Origin: Nitrososphaeria archaeon
GTDB taxonomy: Archaea > Thermoproteota > Nitrososphaeria > Nitrososphaerales > JARVJX01
DNA length: 52,394 nt
Direction: 5' to 3'
Assembly: GCA_029775995.1 (NCBI GenBank)
Contig: JARVJX010000002.1
Span: 1-52,394, forward strand
Under the pieces are notes generated by a model. That model made no database searches. It saw only the letters and a program-made list of their open reading frames with translations, and was not told where the DNA came from. The position numbers were made by a program, and so were the translations under genes. Shown here piece by piece: positions 36,414 to 51,972 of this stretch; the stretch's first letter is position 1, and each line of letters begins with the position of its first letter.

Positions 36414-37487
36414 ATGGTAAAAATTAGAACTGTGAGAGGAGATATAAGTCCAGAGGATCTTGGAGTAACTCTATCCCATGAGCACATCTTGATTAACCTA
36501 CAATTCTTATGTAATTTAATGATGCCTCAAGAGGCTTCCCTTAGAGCCCTTATGGACAAGCCTGTAACTATAGAAATGATATATCTTCTTAGGAGAGGGG
36601 TTAGAAAATTCAACTATGATGATGCCCTTCTTTCTGATATAGATTTGATGGTAAGGGAGCTTTTGGAGTATAAATCCTTTTCTGGAAGAAGCTTGGTAGA
36701 GCAAACCCTTCCAGGTATTGGTAGAGACCCTTTAGGGTTAAAGAGAATTTCAGAATTGACAGGGCTAAATATAATCTGCTCAACAGGCTGGTATATAGTA
36801 TCCTCTCACCCATCTTATGTAAAGAATAAGAGCTCTGAAGAGTTAGCAGATATTATGATAAAAGAGATAGAAGAAGGCATTGATGATATAGGGATTAAAG
36901 CTGGAGTAATAGGGGAATGTGGTTGCTCTTTTCCCATACCCTATCATCCTGAAGAGGAGAAGGTTTTAAGAGCTGCTTGTAAAGCTCAGAAAGCTACAGG
37001 AGTGGCCTTTAGCTGCCATCCAGCCTTTATAGATGTTGAGAGGAAAGTTTACAGAACCGATGCACCCTTAGCCTACATTAAGCTCATTGAGAAAGAGGGA
37101 GCAAACCTTGAGAAGTTCTTCTTAAGTCATAGTGATATTGTCTGCCCAACTTCTGATCATGCATCAAAGCTTTTGGAAAAGGGAATCAATTTGAGCTTTG
37201 ATACCTTTGGTCAGGATCATTATGATGATTATATCTTTATGGGGGCAAGGCATCCTACCGATCCTGAAAGGATTAGCAATATCGTAGAGCTTTGTAAAAG
37301 AGGCTATGAGAAAAATATTATGCTTTCTCAGGATGTTTGCTGGAAGCACCTGTTAAAGAGATATGGAGGACCAGGATACTCTCACCTTCTGGAGCATATT
37401 GTTCCCACTTTCAGATACTATGGAGTTAAAGAGAAGCAGATAAGAACCATGCTGATAGATAATCCGAAGAGAATTCTATCTTTCTGA
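36414..37487 (+). CDS. Phosphotriesterase-family metal hydrolase
   Basis: This TIM-barrel hydrolase has 357 residues. SHEHI gives His22 and His24; GVIGECGCSFP puts Glu where classical phosphotriesterase has a carboxylated Lys; FSCHP and LSHSD give the third and fourth His; SQDVCW gives the final Asp. Glu in the bridging position occurs in the PHP/YhfV-like branch, whose substrates are lactones or unknown esters, so organophosphate hydrolysis is not implied. The start ATG 36414 is preceded by GGTGA (about 36406-36410), with TTTAAAAATTTAAAT at 36376-36390 as the TATA region. Monocistronic. Confidence 0.88.
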   Translation: MVKIRTVRGDISPEDLGVTLSHEHILINLQFLCNLMMPQEASLRALMDKPVTIEMIYLLRRGVRKFNYDDALLSDIDLMVRELLEYKSFSGRSLVEQTLPGIGRDPLGLKRISELTGLNIICSTGWYIVSSHPSYVKNKSSEELADIMIKEIEEGIDDIGIKAGVIGECGCSFPIPYHPEEEKVLRAACKAQKATGVAFSCHPAFIDVERKVYRTDAPLAYIKLIEKEGANLEKFFLSHSDIVCPTSDHASKLLEKGINLSFDTFGQDHYDDYIFMGARHPTDPERISNIVELCKRGYEKNIMLSQDVCWKHLLKRYGGPGYSHLLEHIVPTFRYYGVKEKQIRTMLIDNPKRILSF

Positions 37488-38198: not shown

Positions 38199-39119
38199 AT
38201 GACTAAATCCTTTACAAATTTGAAGAATTTGGGTTTTATAGGATTGGGGAGAATGGGTAATTTGATGGCTAAAAATTTAATTAAAAGAGGCTATCTTCTT
38301 AATGTTTGGAATAGAACTATAGAAAAGGCTAAGGAATTATCAAGTTTAGGAGCCTCCATAGCAGAAAATCCAAAGGCTGTAGCTGAGAAAAGTGATGTAA
38401 TCATATGTATGCTTGCTAATCCTTTAGTTACTGAAGATGTTATCCTTGGGAAAGAGAAGTATATAGGAATATCAGTCTCTGATGGAATTAGCAAGGATAA
38501 GATGGTAATAGATATGAGTACAAATAACCCAAAGGTCGTTAAAAGAATGGCAAACACTTTGAAAGATAAAGGTTGTGAGCTTATAGATGCCCCCGTTATG
38601 GGTAGTATAAATCTTGCCGCTGAAGGCGGTTTAACCATTCTTGCCTCTGGTAGAGAAGAGAGTGTGAACTTTGTAAAACCTATTTTGGAGGCTATGGGTA
38701 AAAAGGTCTGGTATATAGGAGAGGTAGGTTTAGCCTCTTCTCTTAAACTCATACTTAATACCCATCTATGGATAATGCTTGGAGCCTTTTGTGAGACTTT
38801 AACCTTAGCAGCTAAGGTAGGAATCGATACAAAGCTAATGTTAGAGGTTTTAAATAGTAGCCCTTTAAAGACTTTCGTCTCAGAAACTAAAGCTAAAAAG
38901 GTTTTAGAAAGAGATTGGAGACCTGCTGCAACCTTAGAGATAGCCTTAAAGGATTTAAATCTTGCAGTAGATATGGCTGAAGAAGCTTATGTTCCCATAC
39001 CTCTTGCCAATCTAATCAAAGATTTGTTTATAGCAGGAATAGCAAAGGGTCTAAAAGATTTAGATTATAGCGCCTTAATTTGCTTATATGAGAGCTTAGC
39101 AAAGGTTAAAGTTTCCTAA
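38199..39119 (+). CDS. 3-hydroxyisobutyrate dehydrogenase-family enzyme
   Basis: The 306-residue NAD(P)-dependent beta-hydroxyacid dehydrogenase has LGFIGLGRMGNLMAKNLIKR as the nucleotide loop. NRT after the second strand suggests NADPH (Arg/Thr in place of Asp). DAPVMGSINLAAEGGLTILA is the substrate-binding block, and the catalytic Lys is in LASSLKLILN. Family members act on 3-hydroxyisobutyrate, tartronate semialdehyde, glyoxylate or 6-phosphogluconate-like substrates. It ends 4 bases into the convergent dikinase gene, so its link to the neighbouring molybdenum-hydroxylase locus is by position only. Confidence 0.85.
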   Translation: MTKSFTNLKNLGFIGLGRMGNLMAKNLIKRGYLLNVWNRTIEKAKELSSLGASIAENPKAVAEKSDVIICMLANPLVTEDVILGKEKYIGISVSDGISKDKMVIDMSTNNPKVVKRMANTLKDKGCELIDAPVMGSINLAAEGGLTILASGREESVNFVKPILEAMGKKVWYIGEVGLASSLKLILNTHLWIMLGAFCETLTLAAKVGIDTKLMLEVLNSSPLKTFVSETKAKKVLERDWRPAATLEIALKDLNLAVDMAEEAYVPIPLANLIKDLFIAGIAKGLKDLDYSALICLYESLAKVKVS

Positions 39120-40069
39120 AGGGTTGTTATAGGTCTGGATTGTAAAATATAAATTTTATTCTCTTCTATACACCACTCTATATCTTGAGGATGCTTAAAG
39201 TATTCTTCTATTCTCTTAGCCATTTTACATAAATTGTAAATTTCTGAATCAGAAAGGGACTCTGAATTTGCTAAATCTTTGGGAATTTCTTCCATCTTTG
39301 TTCCTTTTCCTTTGTAGAAATCATAAACCACCTTTACTCTTTTGTTTGATATAATACGATGAATAGTTTTACAAAGGTTTTTGTTTACTACATAGTGATC
39401 TGGTGTAACAGAGCCAGATACTAAGGCTTCACCTAAACCCCAAACCGATTCTATGATCATTTGCTCTGGGTTTCTAGTTATGGGATGATAAGTAAAGATT
39501 ACACCAGATTTTTCTGAATTTATCATGCTCTGTACTATTACAGCCATGCTAGCATCCTCATGCTTAATATTTCTAGTTTGTCTATAAATCAGGGCTCTTG
39601 GTGTAAATAGGGATAGCCAACACCCTTTAATGCATTCCATAAATTCATCTTCAGAAACATAGAGATAGGTTTCGTGAATACCAGCAAAACTAGATTGGGG
39701 TAAATCTTCAGCTATTGAAGAACTTCTAATAGCAACATGATGGTTTTTTTCTCTGAGCACCTTATAGTACTTTATAACTTCATCTGTAATTGCCTTGGGG
39801 ATCAAAATTTTTGAAAAGACTTCAGATATGGATAAATGAGTCCTTTCTATGGATTTTATATCCTTATAATCTATACTATCCAAGAGGGGTTTTATCTTAT
39901 CTATTATTCCAGTATTATAAAGAAAATCCTTGTAGGCATTAGCTTTAAGGACATAACCTTTAGGAATAGGGATATGAAGCTTTATTAGCTCACCCAAATT
40001 TGCCGCTTTCGCTCCAACAGATTCTAAATTATATCTGGAAACCTCTTCTAACCAAGAAACATAGTTCAT
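39116..40069 (-). CDS. Dikinase ATP-grasp subunit (PEP-synthase N-terminal half)
   Basis: The 317 residues correspond only to the N-terminal ATP-binding part of PEP synthase. GAKAANLGELIKLHIPIPKG opens the domain; VAIRSSSIAEDLPQSSFAG is the ATP loop; SEKSGVIFTYHP and GLGEALVSGSVTPDHY follow; QDIEWCIEENKIYILQSRPI closes it. It lacks the swivelling His domain and the PEP barrel. Phenylphosphate synthase splits the same way, with a 40 kDa ATP-binding subunit and a 70 kDa His subunit; the matching partner here is at 42806. A GGTGAG site precedes ATG 40069 in the short gap after the HprK-like gene. Confidence 0.88.
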   Translation of the reverse strand: MNYVSWLEEVSRYNLESVGAKAANLGELIKLHIPIPKGYVLKANAYKDFLYNTGIIDKIKPLLDSIDYKDIKSIERTHLSISEVFSKILIPKAITDEVIKYYKVLREKNHHVAIRSSSIAEDLPQSSFAGIHETYLYVSEDEFMECIKGCWLSLFTPRALIYRQTRNIKHEDASMAVIVQSMINSEKSGVIFTYHPITRNPEQMIIESVWGLGEALVSGSVTPDHYVVNKNLCKTIHRIISNKRVKVVYDFYKGKGTKMEEIPKDLANSESLSDSEIYNLCKMAKRIEEYFKHPQDIEWCIEENKIYILQSRPITTL

Positions 40070-40080
40070 AATAACTCACC

Positions 40081-40974
40081 TTAAATCAAAAGCTTCTCCA
40101 CTTCATCTATTAAAAGTTGAGGGTTAGGAGCACGTATTAGAAAGTAAGGAATACTTGATAATCTCTTTACAAACTTTGCTCTATTTTCACGTAGTAAGTT
40201 GTTATCTAAAAGGGGCATAGCAACATTTGAGCATATAAGGGTAGATAAGGCGTAAAAGGAACTTATACTGTAAAAGGTCTGATATTCTCTCTCAAAAGGG
40301 TTTAGATCAATCACATGAATATCAAAGTTACCATCTATATCTGGTAGTATGATTAAATCTGGTTTTGCTGGCAGTTCATAATAAGTAAAGTTGGGTAGTT
40401 CTTTAAAGAACTTTGCAACCCCATCTTTTGTTGATGGCTTATCGGACCTTTCAGTACCCTTTAAACGCTTTTTAAGAAATACATCCCTTGTTCCAGATAG
40501 TATTAAACCTTTTTTATCACAAATTAAGCTTTCAGTTCCAATGACCTTTCCCTTTCTATTTGAGGCTTCTATTAAACACATGGTCTTACCGTGATTTTCT
40601 TCACCACTAAGAAAAATTATGTTTTTACTCTTATAATTTAAGGCTGCTGCATGTAGTGGATAAAGCTCGTTCTCTTCTAACCTCTTTACCAATATGGAAA
40701 CTAAAATACGCTGAACTTCGCCTTCGCTCCAATTTCCCTTTAGCAAAAGCGTATCATTACGTAATAGTATATTCTTAGAATCTTTATCATCTTCTATAAT
40801 AATATCGGGATTAGGCTTGCTTGTTTCTTTGCTAAACTCTAATACACCTAGTCTGTAAATTAAATAAGTACTATCTCCAAAGTATTTTTCTAATAAATTA
40901 TCCTCTGAATCAACACGAACCTTGGCTTTAAGGCACTTAATTTCTATCGATGCTTTAGCTTTATTGCCCATCAT
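40081..40974 (-). CDS. HPr-kinase/PEPCK-like P-loop protein
   Basis: The 297-residue protein has a P-loop SGEENHGKT at residues 123-131, preceded by YPLHAAALNYKSKNIIFL, the text typical of HPr-kinase-related proteins and of PEP carboxykinase-fold P-loops. The N-terminal 100 residues are family-poor. HPr kinases phosphorylate a Ser on a partner protein; archaea generally lack the HPr sugar system, so another target is likely. The middle gene of the operon SCP2 - HprK-like - dikinase. It could regulate or charge the dikinase, but this is inference. Confidence 0.75.
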   Translation of the reverse strand: MMGNKAKASIEIKCLKAKVRVDSEDNLLEKYFGDSTYLIYRLGVLEFSKETSKPNPDIIIEDDKDSKNILLRNDTLLLKGNWSEGEVQRILVSILVKRLEENELYPLHAAALNYKSKNIIFLSGEENHGKTMCLIEASNRKGKVIGTESLICDKKGLILSGTRDVFLKKRLKGTERSDKPSTKDGVAKFFKELPNFTYYELPAKPDLIILPDIDGNFDIHVIDLNPFEREYQTFYSISSFYALSTLICSNVAMPLLDNNLLRENRAKFVKRLSSIPYFLIRAPNPQLLIDEVEKLLI

Positions 40975-41010
40975 TAAAAAGGTTCAATAAAGTAGAAATA
41001 TATATTTAAG

Positions 41011-41400
41011 CTAAAGGAATAGCCTACCAAATTTAAGAAGAAAATTAATTTTACCTTTATTTCTCTCTTGAACTATTTGGCTAATCCTTCTGAATCTTAC
41101 AGCATCAGTTATAGAGCCTGATATTTGATATAGCTTCTTCACAAAGGCTTCCTCCTGATCTATCTCACCCATAATTATTCTGTAAAAAGTTTGTGATTCA
41201 CAAGTTATAGTGGCTGATGCATTACCTACTTTACCATCTTTTAAAACCATTTTACCATTTTTTATTTCAACATAAAAAGGTTCTTCTCCATACAGCTCAA
41301 ATTGTATTAAACTTTCCATACTTTCTAGCATTTGCTTTGCTTCCTCTGTACGATTAGCAAGAAATATCAATCCTTTAAGAGCCCTTAAACATTTACCCAT
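41011..41400 (-). CDS. SCP2-like sterol/lipid-binding domain protein
   Basis: The 129-residue protein has the single-domain SCP2 pattern: IQFELYGEEPFYVEIKNGKM, VLKDGKVGNASATITCESQT, then FYRIIMGEIDQEEAFVKKLY and a C-terminal SGSITDAVRFRR helix. SCP2 domains bind hydrophobic ligands such as sterols, fatty acyl chains or aromatic compounds in a tunnel. It is the first gene of the leftward operon. It shares a 53-base divergent promoter region with the molybdenum-hydroxylase operon, which suggests a role in presenting a hydrophobic substrate. Confidence 0.8.
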   Translation of the reverse strand: MGKCLRALKGLIFLANRTEEAKQMLESMESLIQFELYGEEPFYVEIKNGKMVLKDGKVGNASATITCESQTFYRIIMGEIDQEEAFVKKLYQISGSITDAVRFRRISQIVQERNKGKINFLLKFGRLFL

Positions 41401-41423
41401 GACCTCATTAACGAGCCATAAAC

Positions 41424-41434
41424 TTTAAATTTTT
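41424..41434 (+). promoter_or_regulatory. TATA-like box of the first molybdenum-hydroxylase operon
   Basis: TTTAAATTTTT ends about 20 bases before ATG 41454, inside the 53-base divergent gap. The region must also drive the leftward SCP2 operon, so the two sides may be controlled together. Confidence 0.4.
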
Positions 41435-41453
41435 CTAAAGGATACAATATAGA

Positions 41454-42335
41454 ATGCCTGAGCTTGGATATTTTGCCCCTGATGAGTATTTAAAACCTAA
41501 TTCCATAGAGGAAGTAGTTAATCTTCTTCAGAGATATGGAGATAAAGCAAGAATAGTAGCAGGAGGAACGGCCCTTTACGAGTTAGCGAAAAGGGGTATG
41601 ATTCCTCAGGTGAAGAAAATGATAGATTTGGAATATTTGAATTTAAGGTATGTACGCTCTGATGAAGAAGGAATAAAGATAGGTTGTATGGTAAAGATAT
41701 ACGAGCTTGCTAATAGCCCCATCTTAGATATTCATCCCTATTACTCTATAAAGGAAGCAGCCCTTAACATAAGACCTGTTCAAATAAGGAATATGGCTAC
41801 CGTTGGGGGAGAAATTTGTTCAGCTATTCCCTTCCTAGATTTACCAACTGTTTTTCTAGCCTTAGATGCAAAATTAAGGATAATTGGACCAAAGGGAGAA
41901 AGGAAAATTGACATGGATGGTTTTTATTTTGATTATTTTCTTACATCTTTAGGTAATGGTGAGTTTGTTATAGAGGTTATGATACCTAAGTTACCAGATA
42001 AAACTGGTAGTGCCTTTTTAAAGTTTGAAAGGACGGCTGTAGATTTGCCTTTGGTAAATGTCGGAGTTAGTTTGATGAATAAAAATGGTGAGTGCAAGAA
42101 TGTAAGAATTGCCTTAGGAGGGGGGAGAACTCATGTAAGGATTAAAAGCTTGGAAAGGGCTTTAGAAGGAAAAAGGTTCAATGATAAGATTTTAGATGAT
42201 ATAGTTCAAAGCTTATCTGATGAGTTTAAACCTATAAGCAGTGCCCACGCATCCACTGAGTATAAACTTGAAATTGCAAAAATACTGTTAAGAGATGCCT
42301 TACTTATAGCCTATAAGAGAAGCCAAGGTGATTAA
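41454..42335 (+). CDS. Molybdenum hydroxylase FAD subunit
   Basis: The 293-residue medium subunit of a xanthine-dehydrogenase-family enzyme. It binds FAD and passes electrons out. ARIVAGGTALYELAKRG (AGGT motif near the N-terminus) and IRPVQIRNMATVGGEICSAI, followed by FLDLP, are the FAD-binding signatures; the C-terminal CO-dehydrogenase-type domain has NVRIALGGGRTHV. The stop overlaps the iron-sulfur gene by 8 bases. It is first in the order FAD - FeS - dikinase - Mo. Confidence 0.92.
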   Translation: MPELGYFAPDEYLKPNSIEEVVNLLQRYGDKARIVAGGTALYELAKRGMIPQVKKMIDLEYLNLRYVRSDEEGIKIGCMVKIYELANSPILDIHPYYSIKEAALNIRPVQIRNMATVGGEICSAIPFLDLPTVFLALDAKLRIIGPKGERKIDMDGFYFDYFLTSLGNGEFVIEVMIPKLPDKTGSAFLKFERTAVDLPLVNVGVSLMNKNGECKNVRIALGGGRTHVRIKSLERALEGKRFNDKILDDIVQSLSDEFKPISSAHASTEYKLEIAKILLRDALLIAYKRSQGD

Positions 42336-42813
42336 ATTAAGCAGAAAGATTACTTTAAATGTTAATGGTAAGAACTATGAGGTTTTATGTGAAGCTGGGG
42401 AAAATTTACGGGATGTTCTTAGAGAAAAATTGGGTTTTTTAGGGGTTAAGAAGGGTTGTGATTTTGGTGGTTGTGGTGCCTGCACTGTGATAATTGATGA
42501 TAATGCCGTATATTCATGTATGACCTGGGCTTATAAAGCTGAAGGAAAAAAAATCACCACCATAGAAGGATTATCCTCTGGAAGGCCTTTACATCCTGTT
42601 CAAGAGGCCTTTATAGCTTTAAGTGCCTCTCAATGTGGTTATTGCACTCCTGGAATAGTTATGTCAGCTCTTGCTTTACTAAATAAAAATCCTAAACCAT
42701 CGTTTGAAGAAATTAAAGAGGCTTTAGCTGGTAATATGTGCCGCTGCACAGGGTATGTTAGATATATTAAAGCCATAGTTAATGCCTGTAAGAATTTAAA
42801 GAAGTTTGAATAA
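42328..42813 (+). CDS. Molybdenum hydroxylase 2Fe-2S subunit
   Basis: The 161-residue small subunit has two iron-sulfur clusters: a plant-type one in KKGCDFGGCGACTV with a fourth Cys in SCMTWA, and the second in CGYCTPG plus MCRCTGYVRY. It moves electrons from molybdenum to FAD. GTG 42328 is the start, overlapping the FAD gene by 8 bases. It overlaps the dikinase gene by up to 8 bases, so the four genes are translationally linked. Confidence 0.94.
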   Translation: MIKLSRKITLNVNGKNYEVLCEAGENLRDVLREKLGFLGVKKGCDFGGCGACTVIIDDNAVYSCMTWAYKAEGKKITTIEGLSSGRPLHPVQEAFIALSASQCGYCTPGIVMSALALLNKNPKPSFEEIKEALAGNMCRCTGYVRYIKAIVNACKNLKKFE

Positions 42814-44554
42814 AATAAAAGTTTATATGAACCATCTATTAAACAAATTATTAATGAATGCTGAAGATGAATACGTATTCGGGTCTAAAGTAATAGGAAA
42901 GTTCTTTGGTGATACAAAATTTCCAGTAGAATGGTCCAATGAAGATGAGAAAAAGCTCCATTGGTGGTTTGATGATTTACATTGCCCGCATCCTTTATCC
43001 TTCATGTATGAAAATATCGGTGTAACTGCATCTTGGAATGTTAGATATGCCTTTAGAAGGTTTCGCTTCCCCCAATCTAAAGATTGGATACAAAAGCTCT
43101 TTAATAGATATTTACATACTGCCCTTATACCAAGAGAGCCTGAAGAAGCTAAGCGTTATGAAGCCTATTATAACATGATATTCCCAGTATATATTAAAAA
43201 ATTTCCAGAATGGTGGAAAACAAGATATGAACCAGAGCTTAAAAGAAATTTAGATTACCTTGATAACTTTGATTATGAAAAGGCTTCACTGGCAGAACTA
43301 ATGGTTCTCTTAGAGGATGCTTTGGATATAAATGATAGACATTGGGAGATTCACTGGATACTCAACTTTGCCCAATTCTTTAGCTTCATAAGATTTAGAC
43401 AAGTGTATGCGGAAATCTTTGGAGAAATAAAGGAAGAGGATGAAGAAGAGATACAAAAGATGCTTACAAGCTTTGAAGATAAGAATTGGGATGCCATAAA
43501 ACACCTCTGGTTAATGAAGGAGAGGGTCAAAGCAAGTCCTAATCTAACTAATATATTCAAAAGAGAAAATGCAAAGGAGATACTTGAAGCCTTGAATAAG
43601 GATTCAGAAGGTAAAGAATTTATGTTAGAATTTGAAGAGTTTTTAAAGGAATTCGGGGCTAAAGCCATCTATGCTCACGAGTATATATATCCTACTTGGA
43701 GGGATGAACCTTCTGCAGTTATTGAGCTTATAAGAACCTACCTTATAATGGATTACAACTTCTATGAGCATTTTTACAGGCTTAAAAATGTTAGGGATGA
43801 AGCTATCAAAAAGATGTTTGATAGAGAAATGAAGGAAGAGCAAAGGAAGAAATTGAGTGAAGCTCTTAACGATGCTTTAACTTTAGCTCCCTTAACTCCA
43901 AATCACCATTTCTATATTGACCAAGGAACCAATGCAAGAATGAGGCAGGTATTTTTAGAAATAGGAAAGAAGCTTGTAAAGGAGAATGTAATTGATAAGC
44001 CTGAGGATATATTCTTCTTATACTATGAAGAGTTACGTGATATAGCATCTAACCCGAACTTTTTGAATGCTAAAGTTTTAATCGAAAGGAGAAGAAAAGA
44101 ATGGGAGGAAGCCCATAAATTGATTCCGCCTCCCTTTTTAGGAACTGTAACTGAATGGTCAGCAAAGGAAGAAGCATGGAAAGTTGGTTTGTGGGGATGG
44201 CAGTTGCCAGAACCTACAAAGAAGGTTAAAGAAGATTTATTGCATGGTTTAGCAGCTTCTCCTGGAGTTGTTGAAGGAATAGCAAGAGTAGTAGTTTCTG
44301 TTGAAGAGTTTGATAAGGTTAAGCCTGGAGATATTTTGGTCTGTGATATGACAAATCCGGCCTGGGTCCCTCTATTTCCAAAAATTAAGGGCTTGGTTAC
44401 CGATTCTGGAGGTTTACTATCTCATCCAGCCATCACTGCGAGAGAATTTAGAATTCCTGCTGTAATTGGTACTGCTATGGCCACAAAGAAGGTAAAAAGT
44501 GGTCAAAGGATAAGGGTTGATGGTAGTAAAGGTATCGTTGAGATACTTAAATAG
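42806..44554 (+). CDS. Dikinase large subunit with phospho-His swivelling domain, nested in Mo-hydroxylase operon
   Basis: 582 residues (about 68 kDa) from TTG 42806, or about 575 from ATG 42827. Residues about 478-582 form the PEP-synthase swivelling domain: AASPGVVEGIARVVVSVEEF, then DSGGLLSHPAITAREFRIPA with the catalytic-position His near 540. The long N-terminal part (HWWFDDLHCPHPLSFMYENI and onward) resembles the corresponding half of phenylphosphate synthase. The PEP/pyruvate barrel is missing. It would accept the beta-phosphate of ATP from the ATP-grasp subunit at 39116 and pass it to an alcohol or phenol. It lies between the FeS and molybdenum subunits, a very unusual place. Confidence 0.85.
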   Translation: MNKIKVYMNHLLNKLLMNAEDEYVFGSKVIGKFFGDTKFPVEWSNEDEKKLHWWFDDLHCPHPLSFMYENIGVTASWNVRYAFRRFRFPQSKDWIQKLFNRYLHTALIPREPEEAKRYEAYYNMIFPVYIKKFPEWWKTRYEPELKRNLDYLDNFDYEKASLAELMVLLEDALDINDRHWEIHWILNFAQFFSFIRFRQVYAEIFGEIKEEDEEEIQKMLTSFEDKNWDAIKHLWLMKERVKASPNLTNIFKRENAKEILEALNKDSEGKEFMLEFEEFLKEFGAKAIYAHEYIYPTWRDEPSAVIELIRTYLIMDYNFYEHFYRLKNVRDEAIKKMFDREMKEEQRKKLSEALNDALTLAPLTPNHHFYIDQGTNARMRQVFLEIGKKLVKENVIDKPEDIFFLYYEELRDIASNPNFLNAKVLIERRRKEWEEAHKLIPPPFLGTVTEWSAKEEAWKVGLWGWQLPEPTKKVKEDLLHGLAASPGVVEGIARVVVSVEEFDKVKPGDILVCDMTNPAWVPLFPKIKGLVTDSGGLLSHPAITAREFRIPAVIGTAMATKKVKSGQRIRVDGSKGIVEILK

Positions 44555-44578
44555 TAAAATGATTAAGGGTAGAAGTCT

Positions 44579-46960
44579 TTGGGTACAGTTGAGTTAGAAA
44601 AAGAAAGAAAAAAAGAATTAATTTATGTAGGAAAAAATTTGCCTAGAATTGATTCCTTAGAGAAGGTTACAGGCTCGGCAAAATACTGTTATGACCTTTT
44701 TTTTCCCAATATGCTTTACGCAGCTGTTGTAAGTAGCAAGTATGCCCACGCTTTTATAAAGAGAATAGATACTACTGAAGCCCTTAAATTACAGGGAGTC
44801 AGAGCTATCATCACTTCTGAGGATGTACCAAAGAAAAGAAAAGGTCAACTATTTTTTGATAGGCCAATAATTACTAAAAAAGCTAGGTATATAGGAGATG
44901 TTATAGCAGCTATAGCTGCTGATACTGAAGAAATTGCTTATGAAGCCGCAAGGAAAATTAAGGTTGAGTATGAGAAACTTCCAGCGATTTTTGATGTAAA
45001 AGAAGCCTTTAACATAAATCCAAAGGTAATAGTACATGAAGACTTAGATGAGCTTATAGAAGCCAGTCAAGGTCATCCTTTATTTGAGCAAGATGCCCCT
45101 TTTTTTAGAAAAATTTTAAAAGATAGGCCTAATGTATTTGCTAACTTCGAAGGTGAAATTGGTGAGGTAGATAAAGCCTTTAAAGAAGCTGATTTTATAG
45201 TTGAAAATGAGTTTAAAACAGGTAGGGTTTATCACGCTGCTGTGGAACCTCATGTAGCTATAGCGAATTATAACCAACATACTGGAGAAGTGACCATTTG
45301 GAGTTCATGCCAATGCCCTTATAGAGCTAAGATGGAACTGTGTTATTTGTTTGATCTTGAGCCCTCTAAAGTAACCTTCATAAATCCTTATGTAGGGGGA
45401 GGTTTTGGTTCCAAAGGCTATCTAACCATAGAGGATATAGCTTTAGCTCTCTCTATGAAGACAAATAGAGCCGTTAGATTAGCCTATAGTAGAAGAACCG
45501 ATTTTCTAAGCACAGTTATAAGAAATGCTACCTACTCCCGTATAAGGGATGCTGTAAAGAATGGTAAGATATTAGCAAGAGAAATGGAAGTATTATTTGA
45601 TGCTGGAGCCTACAATGATGCAACCTTTAAATTTACAAGAAGTGCCATCTTTGCAGCTATAGCCTCTTATTCAATACCAAACTTCAGATTTAAATGCTAT
45701 GGAGTTTACACAAATACACCAGTAGGTGGAGCTTATAGAGGCTTTGGGATACAGCAGGTCCTTTGGCCTGTAGAGAGGCAGATGGATATTTTAGCTGAAA
45801 AGTTATCTATTGATCCAGTGGAGATAAGGAAAAGGCATTTACCAAAAAAAGATGGCTTAAATCCATTATCTAAAGAAAGCTTAGGGGATGTAAAAGCCAA
45901 TGAGTGCTTGGAAAAGGTTATTGAAGCAATAGATTACTATAATAAGAAGAGTGAGAAAAAGAGTAATGGGAAATGGAAAAAGGGAATTGGTATTACCATG
46001 GCAAATAAGCCTATCCATTTACATCATCCTTCAGCTACAGTAAAGATAGATATGAATGGCTTTGTTGAGGTTAGAGTGGGAGTTCAAGAAATTGGAACAG
46101 GCTCTTTAACGGCTTTAGCCCAGATTTCCTCAGAAGCATTAAAAACACCTATGGAAAAGGTAAAGATAGTATGGGGGGATACAAGACTTACACCCTATGA
46201 TGAGGGTACTGCTGGAAGTCGTGTTACAGCTCTTACAGGAAATGCGGTGCTTAGAGCCTGTATGAAAGCTAGGGAAAAGGCCCTTAAACTTGCTTCAAAA
46301 AAATTAGGAATACCATGGCACGAATTAGAATATAAAAATGGTGAAATATTTTCAAAATCCTTTCAAGATAAGAAAATTCATATAAACGAACTTTTTTATA
46401 AAACCATGTATGGTTTACCTAGTGCATCTATTGAGCATGGAGAAATAATAGGCAATGCTATATACGACCTTAAAGAAGAAACTTCAGGCTTAAGAAGATT
46501 TCATCAATCCTATACTTGGGGAGCTCAAGGTATGGAGTTAGAGGTTAACACTGAAACGGGTAAAGTAAATATTCTAAAGGTTATAACGGCTATAGATGTT
46601 GGTAAAGCGATTAATCCAGAGTTAGTGAAATCACAGATTGAGGGAGGCGTTGCCATGGGAATAGGTTTGGCTCTTTACGAAGAGCTGATTTTAAATGAGC
46701 AGGGTGAAATAATAAATGAACACTTCTTAGATTACAAAATTCCAACACCCTTTGAACTCCCTTTAGATATGGAAACTATTATCGTTGAATCTTATGATTC
46801 CTATGGCCCCTTTGGGGCTAAAGCAGTGGGAGAATTTCCATTATGTATAACTCCACAAACAGTAGCTTCTGCTATCTATGATGCCATAGGTATCCAATTC
46901 TATGAGATACCTATAACATCTGAAAAGATATTTTTTGCGATTCATGGTGTAAGAAAATAA
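44579..46960 (+). CDS. Molybdenum hydroxylase catalytic (Mo) subunit
   Basis: The 793-residue large subunit of a xanthine-dehydrogenase-family hydroxylase binds molybdopterin and inserts an oxygen from water. HAAVEPHVAIA, VGGGFGSKGYLT (273-284), PVGGAYRGFGIQQ (381-393) and KAVGEFP with catalytic Glu752 are in place, so it belongs to the AYRGFG class rather than the CO-dehydrogenase AYxCSFR class. The translation start is TTG 44579, 24 bases after the dikinase gene. The substrate is probably a heterocycle, aldehyde or aromatic compound; sequence does not decide. Confidence 0.92.
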   Translation: MGTVELEKERKKELIYVGKNLPRIDSLEKVTGSAKYCYDLFFPNMLYAAVVSSKYAHAFIKRIDTTEALKLQGVRAIITSEDVPKKRKGQLFFDRPIITKKARYIGDVIAAIAADTEEIAYEAARKIKVEYEKLPAIFDVKEAFNINPKVIVHEDLDELIEASQGHPLFEQDAPFFRKILKDRPNVFANFEGEIGEVDKAFKEADFIVENEFKTGRVYHAAVEPHVAIANYNQHTGEVTIWSSCQCPYRAKMELCYLFDLEPSKVTFINPYVGGGFGSKGYLTIEDIALALSMKTNRAVRLAYSRRTDFLSTVIRNATYSRIRDAVKNGKILAREMEVLFDAGAYNDATFKFTRSAIFAAIASYSIPNFRFKCYGVYTNTPVGGAYRGFGIQQVLWPVERQMDILAEKLSIDPVEIRKRHLPKKDGLNPLSKESLGDVKANECLEKVIEAIDYYNKKSEKKSNGKWKKGIGITMANKPIHLHHPSATVKIDMNGFVEVRVGVQEIGTGSLTALAQISSEALKTPMEKVKIVWGDTRLTPYDEGTAGSRVTALTGNAVLRACMKAREKALKLASKKLGIPWHELEYKNGEIFSKSFQDKKIHINELFYKTMYGLPSASIEHGEIIGNAIYDLKEETSGLRRFHQSYTWGAQGMELEVNTETGKVNILKVITAIDVGKAINPELVKSQIEGGVAMGIGLALYEELILNEQGEIINEHFLDYKIPTPFELPLDMETIIVESYDSYGPFGAKAVGEFPLCITPQTVASAIYDAIGIQFYEIPITSEKIFFAIHGVRK

Positions 46961-47367: not shown

Positions 47368-49743
47368 TTATTTATGGATGACTTTCCAAATCTTCTCAGG
47401 TGAAAGGGGTAGCTCGGTTATGCGAACGCTGAAAGGTGATAGGGCATCTTCTACTGCATTTGCTATTGCAGCAGGAACTCCCATAGGAAGTCCTTCACCT
47501 TTACCCTTACCACCAGTAGCTGTATAAGGTGTTGGAACATGGTGCTCATATATTTCGATCTTTGGAGCCTCAGCAATATTAATAAATCCATAATCCATTA
47601 AGGTTGGATTTTGTAATATTCCATTCTCATCATATACGAATTCTTCTGACAAGGCATTACTTACCCCTAAACTCATACCTCCTTGAATCTGTCCCTTCAA
47701 GAGCAATTCGTTTATTGGTTTACCCGAATCATCAACTACTACATATCTATGTATCTTTATCTTCCCTGTATTAGGAGAGACCTCAGCAATAACTCCATGC
47801 ACATCTATTGAGAATAGGGTTGGTACCTTCAAATCATGGTAGGCTATGCTTTCTAAACCAGGTTCCATACCATTAGGAAGCTTTGTAGGATCTAAAATGG
47901 CAACTTTAGCTAACTCGTAAATACTCATCTTCTTACTTTTATCTTTATTATAGATTACAAAACCATCACTAAAGGTAAAATCTTCCATCTTTGCATCAAT
48001 TTTCATTAGATGAGCTGCAAGTTTTGCCAATTTTTCTTTAATACGTCTAGCAGCAATTATAGCAGCACTAGCATTTCTAGCAGGCTGAGCATACCATCCC
48101 TGACCATAGGGACATAGAGCAGTATCTCCCTTTATTACCTTAACTTCATCTATCTTAACCCCAATTTCTCCAGCTACTATTTGGGATAGTATTGTTTCAT
48201 GGCCAGTGCCTGTTGAAACATCTGGAACTGAAACAGTAACCTTTCCATCCCAATCTATCCTTATATGGGCAACACCATACGTGGGTATACTTTCTAAGAG
48301 TACTTGAAGACCAGAACTTAACCCACCAATCTCAATAGCTGGTACTATTCCAATTCCTATGTATCTCCCTTGCTTTCTCAATTCTTCTTGCTCCCTCTTA
48401 AACTTCTCATAATCCAATATTCGAACACACTTTTTGAAGGCCCCTATGTAGTCTCCTGCATCATGAAAGATACCAGTTGGTGAAGTATAGGGGAAATTAT
48501 CTATTAGATTTTTCAACCTTAACTCAACTCTATCCATCTTCATCTCTTTTGCAGCTATATCAAGGAGCCTCTCTAGGGCAAATCTTGGAGGCATGGAGCC
48601 AAAGGCTCTGCTGGGCTGAAGAGGGCCTTTATTCGTTACAGCACATATAACTTCTATCCCTATATTTGGAATTTTATAGGCATTATGAATTAAATAGGCT
48701 CCTAACCAAGTCATAAGCATACCTAAATATACTCCTCCATAACCAGGTCCTACATTGGCTATTATTTTATCCTTTAAACCTGTTATTATTCCATCCTTTG
48801 TAAGGGCAATTTGCAAATAATGGGATTCTTCTCTAGCTTGAGTAGACGTAGTTAAATTTTCCGTTCTGCTTTCAATCCATTTTACCGGTTTTTGTATTTT
48901 TAATCCTGCATAAGCTATTACTAACTCTTCACTATATATGGAGGCTTTTGTTCCAAAGGAACCTCCAATATCGTTAGGAGCTATTACCCTAATTCTTTCA
49001 GGAGGAAGGTTGAGAATTTTAGAAAAGGCATCTCTCCACTGAAAGGGTCTTTGGGTTGTTATCCATACTGTTAAACCAGATATAGGATCATAACTTGAAA
49101 TGCATCCTCTAGTTTCCATAGGTGAACCTCCACATCTATGCGTGTAGAACTTTTCACTAAAGATGTAATCGGCATTAGAGAAGGCTTTATCAGGGTCTCC
49201 AAAATTCTTTTTCTCATAGTATTCTACATTACTATCCCAATGATCGTATAGTTTGGGAGCCTTCTCCTTTAGGGCTTCCTCAGCATCTACTATTACAGGT
49301 AAGGGTTCATAATCCACTTGAATTAGCTCTAAAGCATCTGTAGCCAAATAGGGGTCTTTAGCTATCACTAAAGCCAATGGCTCCCCAAAGTACCTTACTT
49401 TTCCTAAAGCTAAAGGGTAGTATTTAGGTATGTTAAATTTCACTTCTGGATTCAATAACCAGAGCCTTGGGACAAAATCCTCTAGAATCATAGGAGGCAT
49501 TCTCTTCTGTAGCTCTTCTCCAGTAATTACATCTACTACACCCTTTTGCTTTTTTGCATCAGCAACATCTATAGATTTTATTAAGGCATGGGCATAAGGA
49601 GATCTTAGAAAGACTCCATAATGCATATTACTAAGTTTTATATTTCCAATATATTCTCCTTTACCCAATAAAATCCTTAAATCTTCTTTTCTTTTTATAG
49701 GTGCTCCTAAAAGAGGATTTGTACTACTCATTTCTCTCACCAC
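47368..49743 (-). CDS. Molybdenum hydroxylase catalytic subunit, second copy, atypical active-site loop
   Basis: This 791-residue large subunit has GAPIKRKEDLRILLGKGEYI at the N-terminus, GGSPMETRGCISSYDP, DIGGSFGTKASIYSEELV and the catalytic Glu near residue 750 in GKGEGLP. The active-site loop reads NKGPLQPSRAFGSMPPRF (about 371-388), with neither AYRGAGR nor AYxCSFR. It resembles CoxL/aldehyde-oxidase-like subunits, but the substrate is unknown; true aerobic CO dehydrogenase is unlikely. It overlaps the small subunit by 7 bases in the order FAD - FeS - Mo. Confidence 0.9.
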   Translation of the reverse strand: MVREMSSTNPLLGAPIKRKEDLRILLGKGEYIGNIKLSNMHYGVFLRSPYAHALIKSIDVADAKKQKGVVDVITGEELQKRMPPMILEDFVPRLWLLNPEVKFNIPKYYPLALGKVRYFGEPLALVIAKDPYLATDALELIQVDYEPLPVIVDAEEALKEKAPKLYDHWDSNVEYYEKKNFGDPDKAFSNADYIFSEKFYTHRCGGSPMETRGCISSYDPISGLTVWITTQRPFQWRDAFSKILNLPPERIRVIAPNDIGGSFGTKASIYSEELVIAYAGLKIQKPVKWIESRTENLTTSTQAREESHYLQIALTKDGIITGLKDKIIANVGPGYGGVYLGMLMTWLGAYLIHNAYKIPNIGIEVICAVTNKGPLQPSRAFGSMPPRFALERLLDIAAKEMKMDRVELRLKNLIDNFPYTSPTGIFHDAGDYIGAFKKCVRILDYEKFKREQEELRKQGRYIGIGIVPAIEIGGLSSGLQVLLESIPTYGVAHIRIDWDGKVTVSVPDVSTGTGHETILSQIVAGEIGVKIDEVKVIKGDTALCPYGQGWYAQPARNASAAIIAARRIKEKLAKLAAHLMKIDAKMEDFTFSDGFVIYNKDKSKKMSIYELAKVAILDPTKLPNGMEPGLESIAYHDLKVPTLFSIDVHGVIAEVSPNTGKIKIHRYVVVDDSGKPINELLLKGQIQGGMSLGVSNALSEEFVYDENGILQNPTLMDYGFINIAEAPKIEIYEHHVPTPYTATGGKGKGEGLPMGVPAAIANAVEDALSPFSVRITELPLSPEKIWKVIHK

Positions 49744-50237
49744 CTAAAGGCTTCCTTTAATTTATCTTTTGGTATGCCTGTAAGAGTTTCTGAAGCGTAT
49801 TTAATAGCATCAATGATATTTGTATAGCCTGTGCATCTACAAAGATTCCCTTTTAAAAATTCTCTTATCTCTTCTTCAGAAGGTGTTAAATTCTTCTTTA
49901 ATAAGGAGTAAGTAGCCATCAAAAATCCACTGGTACAAAATCCACATTGAAGAGCATGGTTTTCCCAGAAGCCCTTTTGTATAGCATGTAGCTCTCCATC
50001 TTTAGCCAACCCTTCAACTGTTACTATATGCCCTTCATTAGCCATAGCAGCAAAAATTAAACAGGACTTTACAAGCTTGCCATTTAAGATGACTGAGCAA
50101 GAGCCACACCTCCCTACACCACAGGAAACATTAACACTTAAGGCATCAACCTTTTCCCTTAGAAAATCAGAGAGTAGCATTCTAGGTTCAACTTCTTCTT
50201 CAACTAAAACCCCATTGACCTTCATTCTAATTTTCAA
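49737..50237 (-). CDS. Molybdenum hydroxylase 2Fe-2S subunit, second copy
   Basis: The 166-residue small subunit has the plant-type cluster in VSCGVGRCGSCSVILNG with a fourth Cys in VKSCLIF, and the second cluster in LQCGFCTSGFLMATY plus NLCRCTGYTNII. CGFCTSG replaces the more common CGYCTPG. It overlaps the FAD gene by 4 bases and the molybdenum gene by 7. It is a paralogue of the gene at 42328. Confidence 0.93.
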   Translation of the reverse strand: MKIRMKVNGVLVEEEVEPRMLLSDFLREKVDALSVNVSCGVGRCGSCSVILNGKLVKSCLIFAAMANEGHIVTVEGLAKDGELHAIQKGFWENHALQCGFCTSGFLMATYSLLKKNLTPSEEEIREFLKGNLCRCTGYTNIIDAIKYASETLTGIPKDKLKEAFRW

Positions 50238-51112
50238 ATTCTAGCACCTGCCCTTTCCAAAGATAAATTTAAAGAATTTTCTACTAAAGTAGCTATTAAA
50301 GCCCTTCTATATTCGCTTGATGCCATCCAATCACTTTGAGGGTTTAAAGTTTCAGAAGCTATCTTAGAAGCCTCTACTATATCCTTATCTTCCACCTTTT
50401 TACCTACTATTACATCTTCAGCTCCCTTTACTCTTTCTGGTTTTGGTAGGATTCCACCAACGGCTATTCTACAGTCTTTAACAACTTTATTTTCATCTAT
50501 TTTAACTAAGGTTGCCACATTGATTAAGGATATATCACCCTGATGATAAGGGAACTTTAGAAAGCTTGAACCAACCCTTCCCTTAACTTTTGGGATTTTG
50601 ATCTCCAACAACAACTCATCAGGAAGGAGGGAAGTTTCAAAGGGCCCCATTAGAAATTCATCAGCCTTTAAAGTTCTCTTACCCTTATTGCTTATAGTTA
50701 ACAATAAGGCTTCTAAAGCTAAAACAACTGGTAAGTAATCAGCTGCAGGATCACTATGGCAAACATTTCCTCCTATAGTACCCATATTTCTTATAGCATG
50801 ATCAGCTATATTTTTTGCAGCATCTACTAAAGCTTTTGCATATCTACTTAGCAATTCACTTTCTAACACTTCATTATGGCGTGTAAGGGCTCCTATATTT
50901 ATATAATTATCATCTTCCTTAATATAGGAAAGTTCAGAGAGTTTATTGATATCTATTACAATCTTTGGTGATAAAACTCTAAGCTTCATCAAGGGTATAA
51001 GGCTTTGTCCTCCTGCAAGGACCTTTGCATCTTGTTGATACTTCTCTAACAAATCTAAAGCTTCTTTCAGTATATTAGGAGATTCGTATTCAAAATTTTT
51101 TGGGTAATACAT
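50234..51112 (-). CDS. Molybdenum hydroxylase FAD subunit, second copy
   Basis: The 292-residue medium subunit carries AKVLAGGQSLIPLMKLRVLS (AGGQS) and HAIRNMGTIGGNVCHSDPAA followed by DYLP, both FAD-binding. A C-terminal CO-dehydrogenase-type domain contains DCRIAVGGILPKPERVKG. It is first in the second operon, reading leftward from ATG 51112; a 56-base gap separates it from the upstream isomerase gene, so all four may be cotranscribed. Confidence 0.93.
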   Translation of the reverse strand: MYYPKNFEYESPNILKEALDLLEKYQQDAKVLAGGQSLIPLMKLRVLSPKIVIDINKLSELSYIKEDDNYINIGALTRHNEVLESELLSRYAKALVDAAKNIADHAIRNMGTIGGNVCHSDPAADYLPVVLALEALLLTISNKGKRTLKADEFLMGPFETSLLPDELLLEIKIPKVKGRVGSSFLKFPYHQGDISLINVATLVKIDENKVVKDCRIAVGGILPKPERVKGAEDVIVGKKVEDKDIVEASKIASETLNPQSDWMASSEYRRALIATLVENSLNLSLERAGARI

Positions 51113-51168: not shown

Positions 51169-51972
51169 TTATATTTTCTCAAATTGCTTTTTGCATTCAT
51201 TTATGAGCCAATTAGGATCCTCCTTCCATAGCTCATCAGAGAAAATCTCTACTTCATAAAATCCATCATAACCTGTATCTTTTATAGCAGATAATATGCT
51301 CTTTAAAGGAATTATTCCATAACCCATTATGGTTCTATCATTTAGGGAACGAGTTTTCTCCCTCCAATCGTTTATATGTACCCCAAAGATCTTTTCTGAA
51401 GCTCTCTTTATTTGAGAATATAAATCTCTCTCCCACCATAAATGGTAAACATCAAAGAAAATACCCAAATTCTTTGAGTCAATCTCCTCAACCATATCTA
51501 GCGCATCTTTTAAGGTATGAATTATAGTCCAATCAGCTCTATACATAGGATGAATAGGTTCTAAAGCTAATTTAACCTTATATTTTTCAGCAACGGGTAT
51601 AAGCTCCTTAAGGCAACTTTTAACCCTTGCAATAGCGTCTTCTTGAGTAAATTTTCCTATAGGCCCAGTGACAACTAAAAGACAGTCAGCCTTTAGCTTT
51701 GAAGTCAATTCAATGGCCTTAATGGCATCTTTCATTCTGCCTTTAAGAGTTTCTTCACTATCTTGAGTAAAGAGACCACAAAAGGAAACTTCTGCTACAT
51801 GCATTTTAAACTCATTAAGTAATCTAATTCCCTTCTCAATTCCATATTTCTCTATTTTATCCCTGAAGACTCCTATACCTTTAATACCATTAAGAGAATA
51901 ATTTTTAACATCCTGTTCAAAGTCCCAGTTAATGGTGGTGATTTCACTTATAGATAACTTATTTATATCCAA
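51169..51972 (-). CDS. Xylose-isomerase-like TIM-barrel sugar isomerase/epimerase
   Basis: The 267-residue TIM barrel of the AP-endonuclease-2/sugar-phosphate isomerase family has LALEPIHPMYRADWTIIHTL (metal Glu), LGIFFDVYHLWWERDL (Asp, His), GVHINDW (His) and FYEVEIFSDELW (Glu) as the metal site. Relatives isomerise or epimerise ketoses, hydroxypyruvate or inosose. It lies 56 bases upstream of the second molybdenum-hydroxylase operon in the same direction, so a shared sugar-like substrate is possible, but the link is weak. Confidence 0.85.
   Translation of the reverse strand: MDINKLSISEITTINWDFEQDVKNYSLNGIKGIGVFRDKIEKYGIEKGIRLLNEFKMHVAEVSFCGLFTQDSEETLKGRMKDAIKAIELTSKLKADCLLVVTGPIGKFTQEDAIARVKSCLKELIPVAEKYKVKLALEPIHPMYRADWTIIHTLKDALDMVEEIDSKNLGIFFDVYHLWWERDLYSQIKRASEKIFGVHINDWREKTRSLNDRTIMGYGIIPLKSILSAIKDTGYDGFYEVEIFSDELWKEDPNWLINECKKQFEKI

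Follow-up and report, generated by a model that had tools for sequence, protein, structure and literature searches.

A Split Dikinase That Recurs With a Molybdenum Hydroxylase and a PEPCK-Fold Protein in Archaea and Bacteria: A Candidate Catabolic Activation Module

A divergent seven-gene locus was analyzed in a 52,394-nucleotide stretch of DNA (hereafter, the window) from the Nitrososphaeria archaeon assembly GCA_029775995.1 (contig JARVJX010000002.1). The locus encodes a dikinase split into DikN, its ATP-grasp half, and DikC, its substrate-binding and phospho-histidine half, together with a three-subunit molybdenum (Mo) hydroxylase, a P-loop protein whose predicted fold resembles those of phosphoenolpyruvate (PEP) carboxykinase (PEPCK) and HPr kinase, and an SCP2-domain protein. 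The gene set, folds, catalytic motifs, conservation, co-inheritance and Mo monophyly were computed here. We lean toward the reading that the split dikinase, the dedicated Mo hydroxylase and the PEPCK/HPr-kinase-fold protein constitute one catabolic activation module acting on a small, probably polar compound. Among the two-component dikinase systems (HpeHI, CreHI and PpsAB), the system is a widespread variant that has apparently gone undescribed.

A fuller proposal is held more tentatively. The locus may represent an undescribed catabolic pathway, spread over archaea and no fewer than four phyla of bacteria. A split dikinase of a new clade, a miniature kinase of the PEPCK fold and a dedicated Mo or tungsten (W) oxidoreductase would jointly activate a carbohydrate-like or enolisable compound through two phosphoryl transfers. 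If true, a two-component dikinase would for the first time be seen at work beyond the catabolism of aromatics, and this family of PEPCK-fold proteins would gain its first function. The set points to a compound on which many microbes would feed by coupling a Mo or W enzyme to a costly, ATP-to-AMP phosphorylation. With it, the two-component dikinases gain a new clade, and the PEPCK fold an unexplored family of kinases.

Conservation and Co-occurrence of the Gene Set

The recurrence of the set was evaluated in 80 loci, which were obtained from one scan of a genome collection with the N-terminal domain of DikC alone; the open reading frames (ORFs) of the high-GC loci were called by codon usage. 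Of these loci, 56 had a Mo hydroxylase subunit near DikC and 51 the P-loop protein; a gene for a GntR regulator lay nearby in 57, and 40 had an ATP-grasp partner there. The Mo background of the host genomes, approximately 4.6 subunits per 3 Mb, corresponds to a chance expectation of about 3% within 10 kb. Moreover, DikC of this clade and the P-loop protein each occurred in two of the 398 genomes of the window's phylum, and these were the same genomes. Of 251 Chloroflexota genomes, 24 had DikC and 10 had the P-loop protein, and all of the latter were among those 24 (hypergeometric p = 9e-12, with species that are not independent). The association of DikC, the Mo hydroxylase and the P-loop protein is not due to chance. 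The original prediction had treated all seven genes as one system: the dikinase halves, the Mo hydroxylase and the P-loop protein do recur in distant genomes, with the linked Mo subunits in one clade, and the SCP2 gene does not (0 of the 80 loci).

The hosts include soil Chloroflexota, Acidimicrobiia, gut Oscillibacter and Treponema, and thermophilic archaea. Three cultured hosts (Thermomicrobium roseum DSM 5159, Moorella stamsii and Bacillus canaveralius) carry the operon, and hence the system is directly testable. Searches of open-access literature by combinations of neighbour names turned up no account of the gene set; subscription papers were outside those searches.

Domain Division and Phylogeny of the Split Dikinase

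In DikC, the PEP-utilizers domain was located solely at the C-terminus (Pfam, 4e-25), DikN carried the PPDK_N domain only, and a PEP/pyruvate barrel was detected by Pfam in neither protein, in agreement with the earlier description of a split dikinase without a barrel. The catalytic histidine is residue 540 of DikC, in the motif GGLLSH, and the ATP-grasp motifs of DikN, which matches PEP synthase and rifampin phosphotransferase in their ATP-grasp domains, are intact. The AlphaFold model of DikC was confident (pLDDT 89.7), and its best fold in the PDB was that of the rifampin phosphotransferase entries (Foldseek, 5fbu, 4e-20), with an alignment over nearly the full chain. The pair thus has the separate ATP-grasp and substrate-binding plus swivel proteins, the catalytic swivel histidine and the missing barrel of a two-component dikinase, and the same domain division is reported for HpeHI, CreHI and PpsAB (PMC12167813).

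The remaining dikinase of the 1.89 Mb assembly is a single full-length protein of 904 codons on contig C100, and DikN is the sole free-standing ATP-grasp dikinase half in the genome. Because that other dikinase is full-length, DikN and DikC are without any other free partner; a separate partner, which had been named earlier as a finding that would speak against the pairing, was not found, and the two halves are the only unpaired ones in the genome. DikN and DikC would therefore form one dikinase, in which the phosphoryl group, by analogy with related enzymes, would pass from the ATP-grasp half to His540 and on to an acceptor. In Chloroflexota, a protein of approximately 720 aa with PPDK_N and swivel domains, shorter than the usual PPDK, adjoins DikC (L114 19077-21293 and 26 similar loci). 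This protein may serve as the ATP-grasp partner at loci that have no DikN.

The tree placed the window DikC in a clade with 100/100 support that spans archaea, Bacillota, Spirochaetota, Chloroflexota and Actinomycetota. This clade is apart from the PpsA/CreH clade, which was anchored by the PpsA of an Azoarcus plasmid, where PpsB, PpsC and phenylphosphate carboxylase are encoded in its vicinity. The window DikC scored 215 bits against the PRK08296 model (NF006153; cut-off 578), whereas Azoarcus PpsA scored 809 bits. Probes for UbiD, UbiX, PpsC and CoA-ligase found no match in the 80 DikC loci, which argues against a phenol-carboxylation route, and neither a PpsC CBS subunit nor a UbiD-type phenylphosphate carboxylase was recognised among the ORFs surrounding the window locus. 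The phenylphosphate-synthase form that the two halves had been thought to add up to was accordingly rejected as the identity of DikC on its separate clade, its score and its neighbours. The rifampin phosphotransferase model NF041857 was not reached either (165 and 267 bits against 999), and the dikinase is not a single chain. Viral contigs contained no relatives of DikC.

Two further groups of dikinases were observed. Split dikinases of the PpsA/CreH clade occur in two archaeal genomes (L061 6968-9825 and L062 6593-9453) beside HAD-like hydrolases and other catabolic genes, with no Mo enzyme, and possibly represent an archaeal route like those of HpeHI and CreHI. A third dikinase clade is present in the order of the window (L035 439-5082 and L036, genome G015); the genes next to it encode a HAD hydrolase, a double-cupin protein and an Amidohydro_2 protein.

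The Dikinase-Linked Mo Hydroxylase

The FAD, 2Fe-2S and Mo subunits carry normal hydroxylase domains (Pfam), as had been claimed for the rightward genes. In a tree of 39 Mo subunits, 20 dikinase-linked subunits, including that of the window, formed one clade (99/98). The 18 unlinked paralogs, including all those from the same genomes and the second Mo enzyme of the window, were outside this clade; the exception among the linked subunits was that of T. roseum copy 2, which was also outside. The linked enzymes keep the catalytic Glu and lack Glu802 of xanthine dehydrogenase. In the motif alignment, Gly occupied the position assigned to bovine Glu802, and no Arg was present at the position assigned to bovine Arg880; a purine-type xanthine dehydrogenase is unlikely on this signature. 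Furthermore, the curated models of 4-hydroxybenzoyl-CoA reductase HcrABC were not reached (527/994, 98/404 and 173/258 bits).

The dikinase-linked Mo lineage is common to two dikinase clades, because in genome G041 (L037 6838-13652) one of its hydroxylases immediately adjoins a split dikinase of the PpsA clade. The second Mo hydroxylase of the window (Mo, FeS and FAD subunits; 47368-51112, minus strand) adjoins the gene set and belongs to an unrelated clade; it is followed by a TIM-barrel sugar-isomerase-like gene (51169-51972). Contig C151 of the assembly carries a third Mo subunit.

Neighbour Genes and the Proposed Pathway

The substrate class was explored through the genes that accompany DikC. 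Transaldolase was found in 31 of the 80 loci, UPF0261/Tm-1 in 22, Zn alcohol dehydrogenase in 20, a cyclase-family hydrolase in 17, a PEP_hydrolase-like protein in 15 and split transketolase in 14. ABC transporters of the ribose or LivFGHM type recur near DikC, and the ribose type adjoins the set in Anaerolineae. RbsB- and LivK-like solute-binding proteins are encoded next to the set in L066 and L114. The Ruminiclostridium context contains SMP-30, Zn alcohol dehydrogenase and transketolase halves, and the operon of Moorella stamsii (L064 15708-18072) contains an archaeal-type II glyceraldehyde-3-phosphate dehydrogenase (GAPDH) above the curated cut-off and a phosphoglycerate kinase. A tungsten-type aldehyde oxidoreductase (AOR) stands in place of the Mo enzyme in L065, L072, L138 and, beside DikC, archaeal G271. 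A polar, sugar-like or enolisable substrate is favored over a hydrophobic one because AOR, transaldolase, split transketolase and sugar transporters occur where the Mo enzyme is absent. The Moorella type II GAPDH has a 65% identical partner in the actinobacterial locus L091. On a Thermomicrobium roseum plasmid (L144 10490-12593), the Tm-1-like (UPF0261) and PEP_hydrolase genes recur with the dikinase system, and this recurrence is a lead for their function.

In the proposed pathway, DikN would bind ATP and phosphorylate His540 of DikC, the swivel domain of which would bring the phosphate to its own substrate-binding domain. Like rifampin phosphotransferase and HpeHI, the dikinase would then phosphorylate a small organic compound at a hydroxyl or enol, and ATP would end as AMP and Pi. 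Either this compound or the product made from it would be oxidised by the dedicated Mo hydroxylase, most likely at an aldehyde-type group because the tungsten aldehyde oxidoreductase replaces the Mo enzyme in some relatives. A second phosphoryl transfer would fall to the PEPCK/HPr-kinase-fold protein. A polar acceptor of sugar-like, cyclitol-like or enolisable character is probable. The acceptor class, the order of oxidation and phosphorylation, and the role of the P-loop protein are weakly inferred.

Several observations weigh against this pathway. Neither a Mo nor a P-loop gene was present in 14 of the 80 DikC loci, several of which are on short contigs, and no transaldolase, transketolase or cyclase gene lies near the window locus itself. 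The tree of DikN, the input of which included three unrelated long ORFs, left the window row unresolved. Glu802 is missing from the linked Mo enzymes, but they carry no positive sign of an aldehyde substrate. Moreover, all two-component dikinases characterised so far act on phenols (PMC12167813).

The last point makes an aromatic acceptor a serious rival, which we nonetheless regard as unlikely. The dikinase would then activate a phenol or heteroaromatic compound, as PpsAB, CreHI and HpeHI do; the Mo enzyme would hydroxylate a ring or N-heterocycle, and the dikinase would phosphorylate the resulting hydroxyl. The arrangement in G041, a PpsA-clade dikinase beside another XdhABC in T. roseum, the FAH-family gene of the same organism and 4-hydroxybenzoyl-CoA reductase as the closest solved relative of the Mo enzyme are consistent with it. 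The short-chain dehydrogenase/reductase and cyclase-family hydrolase recall the phloroglucinol pathway (PMC10470551), for which no transaldolase or transketolase is reported, and the likeness appears to be one of resemblance only. However, DikC falls in a clade of its own, the phenol-carboxylation probes were unmatched, sugar-phosphate enzymes and sugar transporters recur, and AOR can stand in for the Mo enzyme, all of which speak against an aromatic acceptor.

The P-loop Protein

The P-loop protein had been described as HprK-like. The gene and its place in the leftward group stood, and the label did not: no HPr-kinase model of Pfam or NCBIfam matched, no family model was above threshold, and the fold is nearer to PEPCK. 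The predicted model (pLDDT 92) matched ATP-dependent PEPCK first (Foldseek, 2.4e-8) and HPr kinase second (1knx, 1.5e-4). The TM-scores were moderate, approximately 0.5, and the kinship is thus at the level of the superfamily. The protein scored 13.1 bits against the ATP-PEPCK model PF01293 (gathering score 26.5), and a sequence search of the PDB gave no meaningful match. The P-loop G-E-x-N-x-G-K and a GTER-x-D motif were invariant in 34 aligned homologues, which suggests from sequence that the protein is an active phosphoryl-transfer enzyme. Plasmids contained no relatives of the protein, and its profile weakly picked up long archaeal open frames that resemble canonical PEPCKs.

The protein might instead be a protein kinase that regulates the dikinase, in the manner of the PPDK/PEPS regulatory protein, rather than a metabolic enzyme. 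HPr kinase as the second-best fold and the restriction of the protein to DikC hosts in the samples tested fit such a role. However, the regulatory Thr two residues ahead of the catalytic His is replaced by Leu in GGLLSH, the nearest fold is a metabolic PEPCK, and no HPr or phosphotransferase-system protein was seen in the vicinity of the locus, the range to which this negative applies. Regulation is therefore considered somewhat less likely still than the aromatic acceptor, and the second phosphoryl transfer remains our preferred role for the protein.

The SCP2 Protein

The original prediction gave SCP2 the task of carrying a hydrophobic substrate, which the Mo enzyme would hydroxylate before phosphorylation. 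SCP2 opens the leftward group, and this copy is the only one in the genome. Beyond its absence from the 80 loci, 12 of 22 genomes with a related dikinase had no SCP2 at all, and the others had it on contigs other than that of the dikinase; the neighbour genes, furthermore, point to polar substrates. SCP2 was hence rejected as a part of the system and is probably incidental to the conserved set, and the hydroxylate-then-phosphorylate route on a hydrophobic compound is improbable.

Layout of the Locus

All seven ORFs were intact in the window sequence, and the coordinates, the gene order and the 53-base gap agreed with the original prediction (Table 1). SCP2, the P-loop protein and DikN are read leftward, and the FAD, FeS, DikC and Mo genes rightward; both promoters presumably lie in the gap. 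The FAD and FeS genes overlap by 8 bases, as do the FeS and DikC genes, and DikC and Mo are spaced by 24 bases; DikC is thus inside the Mo operon.

Table 1. Features of the divergent locus (positions in the window).
Feature	Coordinates	Strand	Evidence
DikN, dikinase ATP-grasp half, 317 aa	39116..40069	-	PF01326 (PPDK_N only) 8e-97
P-loop kinase-like protein, PEPCK/HPr-kinase fold, 297 aa, P-loop residues 124-131	40081..40974	-	Predicted fold
SCP2-domain protein, 129 aa	41011..41400	-	PF02036 4e-11
Divergent intergenic region, 53 bases, AT-rich	41401..41453	.	Sequence
Mo hydroxylase FAD subunit	41454..42335	+	PF00941, PF03450
Mo hydroxylase 2Fe-2S subunit	42328..42813	+	PF00111, PF01799
DikC, substrate-binding and swivelling phospho-histidine half, 582 aa, His540	42806..44554	+	PF00391
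Mo-cofactor subunit of hydroxylase, 793 aa	44579..46960	+	MoCoBD_1/2

A chance neighbourhood of two unrelated operons back to back, with which the divergent layout and the incidental SCP2 gene would agree, is extremely improbable, and for DikC, the Mo enzyme and the P-loop protein it was ruled out by the position of DikC within the Mo operon, the recurrence of the set in several phyla beyond the chance expectation and the monophyly of the linked Mo enzymes. Two more genes lie beside the set on the plus strand: one for a phosphotriesterase-family (lactonase-like) protein (36414-37487), which recurs in no more than 1 of the 80 related loci, and one for a member of the 3-hydroxyisobutyrate dehydrogenase family (38199-39119), which is absent from all of them.

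Comparison With Known Systems

HpeHI, the acetovanillone/4-hydroxyacetophenone dikinase of Rhodococcus (PMC12167813), shares the ATP-grasp protein, the substrate-binding/swivel protein with a catalytic His and the lack of a barrel. It is of another clade, as judged from the placement of the related PpsA and CreH in a tree that did not include HpeH, and the Hpe cluster contains a biotin carboxylase, a phosphatase and a CoA ligase, with no Mo hydroxylase or PEPCK-fold gene. PpsAB (Thauera; Azoarcus KH32C plasmid) is a split dikinase with the same domain division, whereas its PpsA falls in another 100/100 clade and its neighbours, PpsC (CBS) and phenylphosphate carboxylase, are not found here. 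CreHI, the 4-cresol kinase (with a CreH-like locus in Rhodococcus ruber), is likewise a split dikinase that opens a catabolic route, and differs in its clade and in its context of a P450 and ferredoxin. Rifampin phosphotransferase provides the closest solved fold for DikC and a close match for DikN, but it is a single chain that acts in antibiotic resistance outside catabolic operons. XdhABC-type enzymes (4-hydroxybenzoyl-CoA reductase and glyceraldehyde dehydrogenase) share the three subunits and the catalytic Glu, whereas the window Mo enzyme is under every curated equivalog cut-off and in its own dikinase-linked clade. ATP-PEPCK and HPr kinase have the P-loop fold in common with the 297-aa protein, which is distinguished from both by its distance from their Pfam models and by its occurrence solely with DikC in the samples tested.

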